In this document: one piece after another, positions 6,357-16,632 of the stretch
How positions within the stretch are numbered: the first letter of the stretch is position 1
Layout of the letters: each line of letters starts with the position of its first letter
Assembly (NCBI GenBank): GCA_012729725.1
Contig: JAAYCO010000069.1
Coordinates: 1 to 36,616 of the forward strand
Length of the DNA: 36,616 nt
Direction: 5' to 3'
From: Planctomycetota bacterium
Lineage (GTDB): Bacteria; Planctomycetota; Phycisphaerae; SM23-33
Program-made: the position numbers and the translations under genes
Notes under the pieces: generated by a model
What the model saw: the letters and a program-made list of their open reading frames with translations, nothing else
The model's database searches: none
Told to the model about the DNA's origin: nothing

Positions 6357-8072
6357 CTACATGCTTCGGCTGCGTTCAAGGACCGTTTTAAGGTTTTCGC
6401 AGGTTCTCTCTACGTCCTTTTCCTTCAGCTCAAGGATATCCTTCAGCGCCTCGCCGATGGCGGGGATGTATTTCTCGATGTAGCTGCGCTTCTTGAGCTC
6501 ATGCTGCAACTTGGCGCTGCGGCGAAGATGAAGCCCAAGCTGCCTGCCGATTTCCTGAAGGGCCAGGCGCAGCTCTTTAAGTATCTCCGGGTAAGAGGCT
6601 ATCGCTTCCTTTGATTCGCTTGTAAAGGGCACCCAGACAGACGCCATGTGGACCACGATGGTCAAGTCGCCCGACGGCAATGCGCCTCTCGACTGCGGCA
6701 GGTTGTACGCCTTCCAGTTGAGATTCACCACTGCCTTGCAGGTTGCGCAGGCGCTTTGCTGATACAGAAGCGGCACGCGGTTGGCGAAGCGAATCAGGCG
6801 GGCCAGAGACTCGCCGTTGGACCGCTCCTCTTCGCCTTCATCCGCCTGCTCAACTGAAGGCTCGCCGACCGGGGCGGGCTCAGCGGGCGCTTTGCCGTAG
6901 GCCAGCGCCGCCTCGATGATGAACGGGTTGCCGCGATAGACGGCTGGGCTGCGTGAGACAGCGGCGTAGAACTCCGCGTTGACGACCTGTTTTAGACCGG
7001 CGACGAGTTGATCCTTGCCTATGGGAACCACGCAATCCGTCGCTGGCGCCATGATCTTTGTTTTCTGGATGGCCTGGTAGATACGCTGGGCATCCTCCCC
7101 GCCAAGCCTCTTGGGGGTGGCAGACGCGTCAACGCCGGCCGTCGCCAGTATCTCCTGAGCCACGCGCGGCGAAACACGCGAGAACTCGCTGCAAAGGAAC
7201 TGGCTGATCCGCTTGGCTTTGGTCTCCTGAAGCATTTTGATCAGCAGGCCAAGTTCGACGCCCTGCGGGTGCGGGCGAATTTCCTTGGGCTGGGGCGGCA
7301 GGTGCTTGCTTGCCGCCTCGTATCGTTCCACTCTGCCATCCGGGGCGTTGTATATCAGCGTGACGTGAGGGTTGGCCACTGCCGTCTGCTGAAGATAATC
7401 GTCAACGCTGGCCCTTCCCTTCTGGTAGCGAGCTTCAAGCTCTATCTCCACCTGAGTGCCCTGGGGCTGATCCCACTCAACCTGGGCCTGCTTGATGATG
7501 TCCGGCCGGTTGTTTCGGGTGTCTATCTGAAGCTCGTAATACTGGGCCTGGCTTCGCGGGCCGGTTCTCGACGTAATCTTTACGGGCTTTCCCGTCGTCA
7601 GCAGTCCGTACATGCCGGCCGCCGAAATGCCAATACCCTGCTGTCCGCGGCTCATACGCAACCGGTGGAACTTGCTCCCATACAGCAGCCTGCCGAATAT
7701 GTGAGGTATCTGCTGGCGAACTATGCCCGGGCCGTTGTCTCGGACGATCACCTTGAAGTGCGTCTCGCCAAGCTGCCCGACGGTGATTTCCACAACGGGC
7801 AGAATGCCGGCTTCCTCGCAAGCGTCCAGCGAGTTGTCTATCGCTTCCTTGACGGTGGTAAGCAGCGCTTTTCTGGGATTGTCGAAACCGAGCAAGTGGC
7901 GGTTCTTGGCGAAAAACTCGCTAACGGAAATGCTGCGCTGCGCCTTGGCCATCGTCTCGGCAGTGGCGCGACGGACTGCCTTCTTGGGCTCTTTTGCCAC
8001 CGGCGCAGGCTGATCCGCTGGCGCAATTTCAGAGGCTGGTGTTACGATTTTCTTGACGTGCTTGCTCGCCAT
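6357..8072 (-). CDS. top6B: DNA topoisomerase VI subunit B (ATPase subunit)
   Basis: This 571-aa protein is a GHKL ATPase of the topoisomerase VI type IIB family. Topo VI passes one duplex through another as an A2B2 complex with the Spo11-like cleavage subunit. Visible motifs are the N-box EAIDNSLDACEE (about 75-86), G1 RDNGPGI (111-117), G2 SRGQQGIGIS (141-150), and the transducer domain with IGKDQLVAG and a VHMASVWVPFTSESKEAIA block near the C-terminus, the conserved end of the subunit. The N-terminal 45 residues are a low-complexity Ala/Lys/Pro tail. ATG 8072 is preferred because GGAG lies eight bases upstream; a GTG three codons earlier is possible. No top6A is adjacent or elsewhere in the window. 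Topo VI is widespread in Archaea and plants and rare in bacteria. Confidence 0.93.
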   Translation of the reverse strand: MASKHVKKIVTPASEIAPADQPAPVAKEPKKAVRRATAETMAKAQRSISVSEFFAKNRHLLGFDNPRKALLTTVKEAIDNSLDACEEAGILPVVEITVGQLGETHFKVIVRDNGPGIVRQQIPHIFGRLLYGSKFHRLRMSRGQQGIGISAAGMYGLLTTGKPVKITSRTGPRSQAQYYELQIDTRNNRPDIIKQAQVEWDQPQGTQVEIELEARYQKGRASVDDYLQQTAVANPHVTLIYNAPDGRVERYEAASKHLPPQPKEIRPHPQGVELGLLIKMLQETKAKRISQFLCSEFSRVSPRVAQEILATAGVDASATPKRLGGEDAQRIYQAIQKTKIMAPATDCVVPIGKDQLVAGLKQVVNAEFYAAVSRSPAVYRGNPFIIEAALAYGKAPAEPAPVGEPSVEQADEGEEERSNGESLARLIRFANRVPLLYQQSACATCKAVVNLNWKAYNLPQSRGALPSGDLTIVVHMASVWVPFTSESKEAIASYPEILKELRLALQEIGRQLGLHLRRSAKLQHELKKRSYIEKYIPAIGEALKDILELKEKDVERTCENLKTVLERSRSM

Positions 8073-8086
8073 CCCTGGCACTCCAT

Positions 8087-8105
8087 CAGTTTGACAGTCA
8101 AACTG
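8087..8105. promoter_or_regulatory. Perfect 19-bp palindrome upstream of top6B (candidate operator)
   Basis: CAGTTTGAC (8087-8095) and GTCAAACTG (8097-8105) are exact reverse complements around one base. The palindrome is 14 nt upstream of the top6B ATG, in the 71-nt gap to the DUF2203 gene. It also contains TTGAC in both orientations. Its position and symmetry suggest a homodimeric repressor site, but no regulator can be named. Confidence 0.55.
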
Positions 8106-8143
8106 TATGGATTCACGCCTCCGGCGTCAAGATTGACTGAACC

Positions 8144-14134: not shown

Positions 14135-15334
14135 TCATCGTCTCGGCGGGCCGAAGTCCGCGACACGCCGGCCTATCTGACGCAGGCGATCAAAATCCGC
14201 GCCCGGCGGCGTGGTGTCTGAAATGCCCAGGATCAGACGGTCACCGCAATCGATCTCTCTGAAGAACCCGTCAAGAAACTCATCAAATTGCCTGTCATTC
14301 ATGGACGAGCGCACCAGCGCAATCGACGGAATGCCTCCCATGATCGTTATGCCGGCCGGCTTGAGAACTGCTCGTGACTCCGCAAAAGAAAGCTTCGTCA
14401 TGGGATACGGGCAGACCGAATCGGCAACGTCGATTGAACTCTTTGCATAGTGCTCCAGAAGGCCGGTGTTTTCTCCGTCCGTATGCGTCAGCAGATACTT
14501 GCCTCTCTGGTGAAGCATTTGGCCAAACCGCCCAAGCCAGGGGGCGATGTGATCCCGGAAGAAAGGCGGGTAAGTTATCATTGCATCATAGTTCGCGCCC
14601 AGAAGGTATATCCGGGCCGGGCTGTCAACAGCCACTTCGAGCACTCGCTGCCAATACAGCGCTATGCGTTCCGACAGCCGCTCAAGCTCCGCCTGGTGGT
14701 CGCTCATCGCGTAGAAGAACTGGTCAACGGCCATGAGCTCTCGCTGGATCAGATGCATGGGCGAGGCGGCAAGGCTGATGAAGCCCGTAACCAGCCCGCG
14801 CTGGCCAACCCGCTGGATCATCGAGTTGATGCCGTCATAGTTGGGCTCGACTCGCGCATGCTCGAAGATATAGCCGACGGCGGCATAGTCCTTCACATCC
14901 CGGATGGCCGGTTGCTCCACATGGCTGACCGTTACGCCGGCCTTCCGCATATCCTCGGTGTACCGCACAACCGTGTCGACCATGCCTTCCGGCGTGTGGT
15001 ACTCGGTGCGGATTCGATCTCCATCAGTTGTGACGCGACGCTCCACGCCTTCCAGAACGATGTGATACGGCATGGTCGAAAGATTGTACAAACCCAGAGC
15101 GCGATCAAGTTCCGCTTCGGGAGATGGATCACCCTTGAAGTCGGGAATGACGCAGTGCAACCCGGCATTCAGGACGTCGCAGACATCCTCCAGCGATGCG
15201 TCCTCAAGCCCAGGGGGCATGGTTCGGGCAAGCTGATTGGCGCGGAACCACAGATCAAGCCTCGGAACCCAGGGAATGCGATCCACCGGCCGGCCTTCGA
15301 TTGCGGCAATCATGTCGTCGCGGAAATCCCTCAT
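14135..15334 (-). CDS. Uroporphyrinogen decarboxylase superfamily protein lacking the MtaA zinc ligands
   Basis: A 399-aa member of the URO-D/methylcobamide methyltransferase superfamily, with a predicted TIM barrel. The start MRDFRDDMIAAIEGRPVDRIPWVPRLDLW is typical (R...A..G...DR.P). The strand-end motif that is H-x-C-G in the zinc methyltransferases reads HTDGE here, and the later Cys position falls in ISDTTPPG, so the zinc thiolates are absent. It is therefore unlikely to activate a thiol such as coenzyme M. Many such proteins are uncharacterised. It is too long and divergent to be the haem enzyme HemE. Its ATG overlaps the stop of the upstream superfamily member (ATGA), so the pair is co-translated and may form a complex or act sequentially on one C1 substrate. 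Confidence 0.8.
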   Translation of the reverse strand: MRDFRDDMIAAIEGRPVDRIPWVPRLDLWFRANQLARTMPPGLEDASLEDVCDVLNAGLHCVIPDFKGDPSPEAELDRALGLYNLSTMPYHIVLEGVERRVTTDGDRIRTEYHTPEGMVDTVVRYTEDMRKAGVTVSHVEQPAIRDVKDYAAVGYIFEHARVEPNYDGINSMIQRVGQRGLVTGFISLAASPMHLIQRELMAVDQFFYAMSDHQAELERLSERIALYWQRVLEVAVDSPARIYLLGANYDAMITYPPFFRDHIAPWLGRFGQMLHQRGKYLLTHTDGENTGLLEHYAKSSIDVADSVCPYPMTKLSFAESRAVLKPAGITIMGGIPSIALVRSSMNDRQFDEFLDGFFREIDCGDRLILGISDTTPPGADFDRLRQIGRRVADFGPPRR

Positions 15335-16314
15335 GACGCAACCCCCTCTCGGATGGCCTTAAGGTTTTCAATTGGCGTCAGCAGTGGCACTGCGCATTCA
15401 GGCCCAACGATGTCTATGCCGGCCAAGACGGCCTGTCGCGCCATTGCCGAAATCTCCTGCGGCGAACCGCGCAACAGCGTGTAGTTGCTAACGCCGCCCA
15501 TGAGGGCAAGCCCCGGCCCGGCGAGCGATCGCACCTTTTGTGGCGAGCCGGTCTTGGTGTCATAGTGAAACGAATCAAGCCCTGTTTGAGATATCATGCC
15601 GATCCGGTCTGACGTATCGCCGCAGATGTGCAGGATGACGGGAGCGTTAATCTCCTTCGCCAGGCGTGCGTGGACGGGCTTAAGGAATCTCTCGTAGGAT
15701 GCCGGGCTGCACAAGTCGCGGGTCGCATGGTCGCCCAGCAAAATGCAGTCGGCGCCCGCGTCGATCTGGGCGCGGGCAAACGATATCGTGACCGGCATCA
15801 GAGCTTCCATGATTTGCTCCACGGCAGAGGCATCGTCCATGGTGAGCATGAGGAAGTTTTCCACGCCAAAGTAGTGGTACGCTTGTGTCCACGGGCCAAA
15901 CACCTTACCGCAGACAGCGGTGTCTTCGCCCAGTCGGCTGCGCAACAACCCGATGGCTTTTAGGGGAACCTTGCAGCCGGGCCTGTCGAGAAGGTCGGCG
16001 GGAACGTGGATGTCCTCGATCGAAGAGAAGATGGGCCTGCCGCTTTCGGGCATCTGCTCCGGGCCGCCCCAGTGGACGTTGCATCCCATGGCTGACGCTT
16101 CGTGGCAAACTGAAAACAGCGGCATGACGATGTCCATGCCCAGTTCGGTATACCCCGCAATCGCCAGACGGGCCATAGCCTCCGGCTCCATGTGAGCCTG
16201 CGGAAACCACGTATCCAGTTTCGCCATCAGGTCTTTGCAGACGATGGAGGTGCCCGTGCCAACAACCAGACCGCCCTCGCGGCGAAGCGCTTTTAGAACG
16301 CTACTCCTGCTCAT
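15331..16314 (-). CDS. MtaA/CmuA-type methylcobamide methyltransferase-like protein
   Basis: A 327-aa URO-D superfamily protein that keeps the zinc-site pattern of methylcobamide:thiol methyltransferases. HIC occurs near residue 229 and a second Cys in VGPECAVP, 75 residues after the first (H-x-C-x75-C). MtaA and MtbA use this site to activate coenzyme M; in bacteria such homologues act on other acceptors. Other motifs are GYTELGMDIVMPLFSVCHEASAMGC near the N-terminus, FGPWTQAYHYFGVENFL and GADCILLGDHATRDLCSP. No corrinoid protein or activating ATPase is adjacent. ATG 16314 is preferred: GGAG lies nine bases upstream, and the open frame further upstream looks like a non-coding leader. It overlaps the next gene by four bases. 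The substrate is unknown. Confidence 0.8.
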   Translation of the reverse strand: MSRSSVLKALRREGGLVVGTGTSIVCKDLMAKLDTWFPQAHMEPEAMARLAIAGYTELGMDIVMPLFSVCHEASAMGCNVHWGGPEQMPESGRPIFSSIEDIHVPADLLDRPGCKVPLKAIGLLRSRLGEDTAVCGKVFGPWTQAYHYFGVENFLMLTMDDASAVEQIMEALMPVTISFARAQIDAGADCILLGDHATRDLCSPASYERFLKPVHARLAKEINAPVILHICGDTSDRIGMISQTGLDSFHYDTKTGSPQKVRSLAGPGLALMGGVSNYTLLRGSPQEISAMARQAVLAGIDIVGPECAVPLLTPIENLKAIREGVAS

Positions 16315-16632
16315 TCCAGTGTCTCCTTTCAATTTGTCTTGTCCGCGGCCATAGCTACAGCCGCAGGCATGGAACCCGCCTGCGCCGGCAGACAGGCAGT
16401 TGCATGACGATCGCCCTGAAAGATCAACCTGCTGGTTGTCCAATCAGTCCCACAGCCTTTTCCGATCTGTCGGACAAGGCCGGCGAGACAATTGCAACTG
16501 CAACGGATTGCTACCGCCGGGCAATACCGCGCCAAGCAGATTTTGGCATTACCGCATGCTGGGCCAATTGCACCCTTTCATGAGCCGCGCCGTATTGTAT
16601 ATTGTGCCACGATACTACTTCAGGAGAGCAAT
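16315..16632. other. Divergent gap with structured leader of the MtaA-like gene
   Basis: This 318-nt region between divergent genes has no convincing gene. Near the MtaA-like start it holds successive GC-rich inverted repeats: GCGGC/GCCGC (16345-16349 with 16360-16364) and GCAGGC/GCCTGC (16363-16368 with 16378-16383). The arms overlap by two bases, so the two folds compete. On the plus strand TATATT (16598-16603) is a possible -10 box for the helicase gene. I looked for a cobalamin riboswitch because the downstream gene is B12-related and did not find its conserved boxes. Confidence 0.45.

Follow-up and report, generated by a model that had tools for sequence, protein, structure and literature searches.

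The DNA analysed here (the window) has a length of 36,616 nucleotides and is a whole contig of a planctomycete genome of 3.2 Mb in 250 contigs. On its minus strand lie two overlapping genes, as the initial annotation had described. Gene A (positions 15331 to 16314, minus strand) encodes an MtaA-like protein of the uroporphyrinogen decarboxylase (UroD) fold with 327 amino acids, which was assigned using Pfam and NCBIfam profiles, a PDB search and a structural model. Gene B (14135 to 15334, minus strand) encodes a divergent UroD-fold protein of 399 amino acids from a subfamily with an H-x-D...D motif, the assignment being based on Pfam, a structural model, a fold match and a family alignment of 41 rows. 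The stop codon of A and the start codon of B overlap in the four bases ATGA (15331 to 15334, minus strand). The longest frame of gene A starts with TTG at position 16443; however, the ATG at 16314 is preceded by a purine-rich ribosome-binding stretch with the sequence AAAGGAG (16320 to 16329, minus strand), and thus the previously proposed start at 16314 is upheld. On either side of the pair are trpS and a divergent helicase gene of the pcrA/uvrD type. A foreign origin of A and B was rejected based on composition, as their GC and GC3 values are those of the window. The first 3063 positions of the window hold a 23S rRNA gene truncated by the contig edge, together with tRNA-Ala and tRNA-Ile genes, which is an ordinary end of a ribosomal operon.

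The A protein matches the Pfam URO-D profile with 198.7 bits, and a PDB sequence search with A found MtaA (4ay7, titled methylcobalamin:CoM methyltransferase) with E 2.6e-51. Its model (pLDDT 90.4) aligns with this structure at TM 0.94 and with 31-32% identity by structural alignment, a method other than that of Kountz and Balskus (PMC10418091), who count as MtaA-like proteins (Mlps) those that exceed 25% identity to a characterised SCMT. The scores of A are below the NCBIfam cut-offs of TIGR01463 (222.1 versus 235.4) and NF004889 (228.7 versus 244), as well as below that of hemE (49.1, cut-off 302.95). Judged by the two curated MtaA/CmuA cut-offs, the sequence of A is that of an MtaA-like protein and not of a member of the MtaA/CmuA family; the A homologue at locus L099 exceeds both cut-offs. 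The metal-site motif reported for this gene is present exactly as written, H229-x-C231-x75-C307, with HIC starting at residue 229 and PEC at residue 305. The codons for H229-I230-C231 (15622 to 15630, minus strand) and C307 (15394 to 15396, minus strand) specify the predicted zinc ligands, the former placed by the motif and by alignment with MtaA 4ay7, and the third ligand by its motif position. These His, Cys, and Cys residues, which are expected in MtaA-like proteins, are kept in all nine aligned homologues. Among the 22 UroD frames of the genome, the complete set was found in A only, although this is a hint from one rough MAFFT alignment, in which some frames are cut at contig ends.

The B protein scores 27.5 bits against Pfam URO-D (cut-off 23.9), and no NCBIfam family, including hemE (TIGR01464), was matched at E 0.001. 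As a single-sequence query against the PDB it produced chance matches only; with its profile, CdmB, a methyltransferase I, was the only sensible match among solved structures (E 0.004). Structure comparison assigns the UroD fold to the B model (pLDDT 94.6), and the Pfam matches and models of both proteins support the kinship with MtaA and UroD that had been proposed for them. The closest structural matches of B include true uroporphyrinogen decarboxylases at about 10-14% identity, with Z 23.1 and rmsd 3.7 over 314 residues for UROD versus Z 21.3 and rmsd 3.9 over 311 residues for MtaA. CdmB was not among the structural matches listed, an absence that carries no evidential weight. The rank of the decarboxylases, as well as the weak Pfam score, would fit a different kind of UroD-fold enzyme, such as a decarboxylase, encoded beside methyltransferase genes by chance. 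We regard this reading of B as improbable, considering the profile match to CdmB and the gene context of B homologues described below.

According to the initial annotation, B has HTD and SDT in place of the cysteine ligands and is without the zinc site. The replacement was readily seen, with HTD starting at residue 284 and SDT at residue 372 (H284-x-D286-x86-D373), and a profile-profile alignment (probability 95%) placed H284, D286, and D373 in the same columns as the H, C, and C of A. The codons for H284-T285-D286 (14477 to 14485, minus strand) and D373 (14216 to 14218, minus strand) specify predicted carboxylate-type metal ligands, as assigned by the motif, the profile alignment and the family alignment. 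The latter comprises the window protein and homologues from 40 of 42 loci, with L105 (in-frame stop) and L117 (partial) left out. In this alignment, the histidine is present in 41 of 41 rows, the first aspartate in 41 of 41 and the second in 40 of 40, one truncated row being gapped at the last position. The three residues are constant across a family that spans identities down to 27-31%, and therefore they do not represent decay. The loss of the metal site in B was rejected at the sequence level, as both aspartates are invariant and stand in the ligand columns of A, where they are predicted to serve as ligands. Variation of the motif among orthologues had been named as a finding that would speak against the earlier proposal; the opposite was found over the 41 rows. 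The B family is distributed in the Planctomycetota, Acidobacteriota, Bacillota, Actinomycetota, Armatimonadota, Spirochaetota, and Chloroflexota phyla, as well as in two records labelled 'uncultured bacterium'. One homologue (L097) is from the cultured bacterium Acididesulfobacillus acetoxydans. A literature search recognised no paper on this H-D-D family, which does not prove absence; B probably belongs to an uncharacterised subfamily, the A and B enzymes themselves being of a known kind.

In the account of Kountz and Balskus (PMC10418091), His-Cys-Cys is the mark of the S-methyltransferases (S/Se) of the UroD superfamily, and the O-methyltransferases of the superfamily have carboxylates or non-ligands where the cysteines stood. 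Following this published rule, A is predicted to be of the S-type and B of the O-type.

The overlap of the two genes had been taken to suggest a fixed partnership, which should be reflected in their co-occurrence in other genomes. In 149 relatives (own genome excluded), A was found in eight (E<=1e-50), B in seven (at least 40% identity) and both in three, in which they are always on separate contigs. Relatives thus carry either gene alone, or both unlinked, so that a fixed partnership fails and the independent occurrence that was to refute it is what we observed. The co-occurrence in the relatives nevertheless exceeds expectation (Fisher 3e-3), and so it does in a phylum sample of 293 genomes (own excluded; A in three, B in five, both in two; Fisher 7e-4), where scoring was limited to the top 6-7 candidates of each genome, so that the counts of A and B may be low; both tests ignore phylogeny. 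A is also present in 20 of the 42 B genomes (E<=1e-40), a proportion that was not used as a test against the phylum sample, the taxonomy of the two sets being unmatched.

In the tree of A, the window protein groups with six rows, five of them from its own family, and a search for B at E<=1e-20 in its nearest family members found none. The window B protein pairs with that of locus L080, from a genome that carries A on a different contig. The nearest relatives of both A and B mostly lack the other gene, and most B loci have no A nearby. At L089, B and A are neighbours in this order, and at L099 the order is A, another UroD gene, and B. An inherited A-B operon was rejected because the nearest A rows are without B, the L080 genes are unlinked, and the three A-B neighbourhoods differ in gene order. 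A looser functional tie between A and B is real, as evidenced by their proximity in two other lineages (L089 and L099) and by co-occurrence above expectation.

An obligate heterodimer, with A as the catalytic and B as a metal-free substrate-binding subunit, had been put forward for this pair. The four-base overlap and the common fold are in its favour, and it is conceivable because the UroD-fold protein CdmB is described as a homodimer (PMC13222342). The genes do not always occur together, B stands alone in most loci, and its ligand columns hold the invariant H, D, and D; we consider this arrangement highly unlikely.

Another overlapping pair was observed in genome G112, where a B homologue (L076:8084-9157) overlaps a gene (6880-8130) whose start is UroD-like by eye; tandem arrangements within the UroD family may thus recur with a partner that varies. 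In the same genome, two more overlapping genes, UroD-like by eye, are located upstream of an A homologue (L069:1909-4213).

The genomic neighbourhoods of homologues connect both genes to corrinoid proteins. A corrinoid-protein gene was found near the B homologue in five of 43 loci and a further UroD-family gene in 16 of 43, and these counts are lower bounds, as crude gene calling missed or misplaced some genes (e.g., A in L154); L122, with 48 residues matched, was dropped from later B counts, leaving 42 of the 43 loci. In Desulfosporosinus (L098) the set is nearly complete: in addition to B, the locus encodes a regulator of the sigma-54 type, a PF00809 methyltransferase, a DUF1638 protein, another UroD protein, a corrinoid protein, and the transporter component DctP. 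In L154 and L160, the A homologue has a corrinoid-protein gene as its neighbour; the order in L154 is A, corrinoid protein, and the activator RACo, with no transporter.

RACo is encoded in 39 of the 42 B genomes, with no match in the other three, compared with baselines of 90 of 294 genomes in the phylum sample and 88 of 150 relatives. It is also present in all 12 relatives and all six phylum-sample genomes (own excluded) that have A or B. The B family thus has the genomic links of a UroD-fold methyltransferase I, in the window's genome in trans only. Both the operons that combine B with a corrinoid protein and a pterin methyltransferase and the frequency of RACo argue against B being a non-methyltransferase.

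Two further families were noted in these neighbourhoods. The DUF1638 (PF07796) gene of Desulfosporosinus (L098:10015-10770) lies inside the corrinoid methyltransferase operon, and an open reading frame similar to it by eye (L107:10237-11001) is near a corrinoid protein, which suggests that DUF1638 has a function in methyl transfer by corrinoid proteins. The second family, with about 236 residues and no Pfam match (L154:5072-5782 and L160:4612-5319), is encoded in two genomes in the vicinity of A homologues and corrinoid proteins.

As stated in the initial annotation, no corrinoid protein or activator is adjacent to the pair: none was seen among the eight window genes scanned, and these components are encoded on other contigs. 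The search for orphan corrinoid proteins that it proposed yielded two with both B12-binding domains, on contigs C123 (L020:5789-6421) and C232 (L010:990-1679); contig C48 has a third, weak match to B12-binding_2. The genome also encodes RACo (on C40, L022:5199-7046) and a pterin-binding non-DHPS protein (on C174, L124:1486-2268), the latter besides a stronger PF00809 match, and about 20 of its frames match PF01208 over the cut-off. The methyl donor, previously called unclear, is indeed without a local candidate; however, given two corrinoid proteins, RACo and a pterin-binding methyltransferase elsewhere in the genome, the question has an ordinary answer, namely shared corrinoid proteins acting in trans. 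An AraC-type regulator gene (L010:1759-3027) is located upstream of one of the two corrinoid proteins and is a candidate methyl-substrate sensor.

We consider it quite probable that both A and B take part in corrinoid-dependent methyl transfer, with the other components supplied in trans. The more specific assignment, for which we see an even chance, is that they are two catalytic proteins and sequential partners, with B as an H-D-D O-demethylase and A catalysing thiol methyl exchange at H-C-C, both relying on shared corrinoid proteins and activator. B would be a substrate-specific methyltransferase I acting on a small O-methylated compound: its His-Asp-Asp metal site would activate the substrate oxygen, and the methyl group would be passed on to a shared corrinoid protein in its Co(I) state. 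At its His-Cys-Cys site, the MtaA-like A protein would bind a thiol, whose sulfur would exchange the methyl group with the corrinoid protein. The two proteins would act in sequence, not as a fixed heterodimer.

The main doubt concerns the acceptor role of A. In L153, L156, and L157, the A homologues have transporter genes as neighbours, a setting that would be more in keeping with a substrate-specific S-demethylase than with an acceptor enzyme. A and B may then be two substrate-specific methyltransferases I, acting on a methylthio and a methoxy compound, respectively, and feeding a shared corrinoid pool, with the pterin-binding protein on C174 providing the common acceptor step and the overlap reflecting an incidental operon. 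The presence of a pterin-binding non-DHPS protein in the genome and the unlinked positions of A and B in relatives agree with this alternative, but the two genes co-occur, they adjoin or nearly so in three lineages in differing orders, and the A homologue of L154 is beside a corrinoid protein and an activator in a locus without a transporter. We therefore treat the two independent methyltransferases as a possible, less favoured explanation. The second doubt concerns the sequential reading in its B part: CdmB is reported to be metal-free, with no zinc, and neither EDTA nor zinc altered its activity (PMC13222342), and thus the metal site predicted for B is not a requirement for a UroD-fold methyltransferase I.

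The neighbours of B homologues offer a weak hint that the B substrate is sugar-like. A rhamnulokinase-like FGGY kinase is encoded beside Actinomycetota B homologues at L104:9198-12133 (score 402.7, cut-off 527.95), L106:1322-4248, and L112:3906-5405, and a gene of the F6 family (aminotransferase-like) is found beside B homologues in L104 and L106. An MFS-type family is present in seven B loci, one member being confirmed by Pfam. We tentatively suggest that B represents an uncharacterised family, found in seven or more phyla, whose members are UroD-fold O-demethylases with an H-x-D...D site and act on non-aromatic methyl ethers, e.g., O-methylated sugars. The system in this genome could then have a hub-and-spoke organization, in which about 20 UroD-family frames draw on one activator and a pair of corrinoid proteins, and A would be the exit linked to a thiol. 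In sediments, one-carbon metabolism is fed by anaerobes that strip ethers of their methyl groups. If B is a His-Asp-Asp O-demethylase, the rule linking cysteines to sulfur and carboxylates to oxygen could be tested directly on the products of two adjoining genes, and a likely function would be gained for one of the planctomycete UroD-family proteins, many of which are unassigned.

HemE has the UroD fold in common with A and, at Z about 23, with B; its identity to B is about 10-14%, and the gene context of the B family is corrinoid methyl transfer, not haem. A resembles MtaA and MtaA-like proteins (SCMTs, Mlps; 4ay7) in its fold and H-x-C...C site, but differs in scoring under the TIGR01463 and NF004889 cut-offs and in lying outside any type 1 mlp cluster. 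Such a cluster, as characterized in Kountz and Balskus (PMC10418091), combines several Mlps with a corrinoid protein and an activase. The window, which encodes one Mlp-like and one H-D-D protein with neither a corrinoid protein nor an activase encoded locally, does not have this composition; the common features are MtaA-like proteins with H-C-C and the A homologue of L154, which is accompanied by a corrinoid protein and an activase. CdmB, the one UroD-fold methyltransferase I compared with B in sequence, has no H or D at the columns of the invariant H-x-D...D motif in the profile alignment. With CdmB, MtoB, MtvB, OdmB, and VdmB as a group, B shares the fold class and the occurrence in operons with a corrinoid protein and a pterin methyltransferase.
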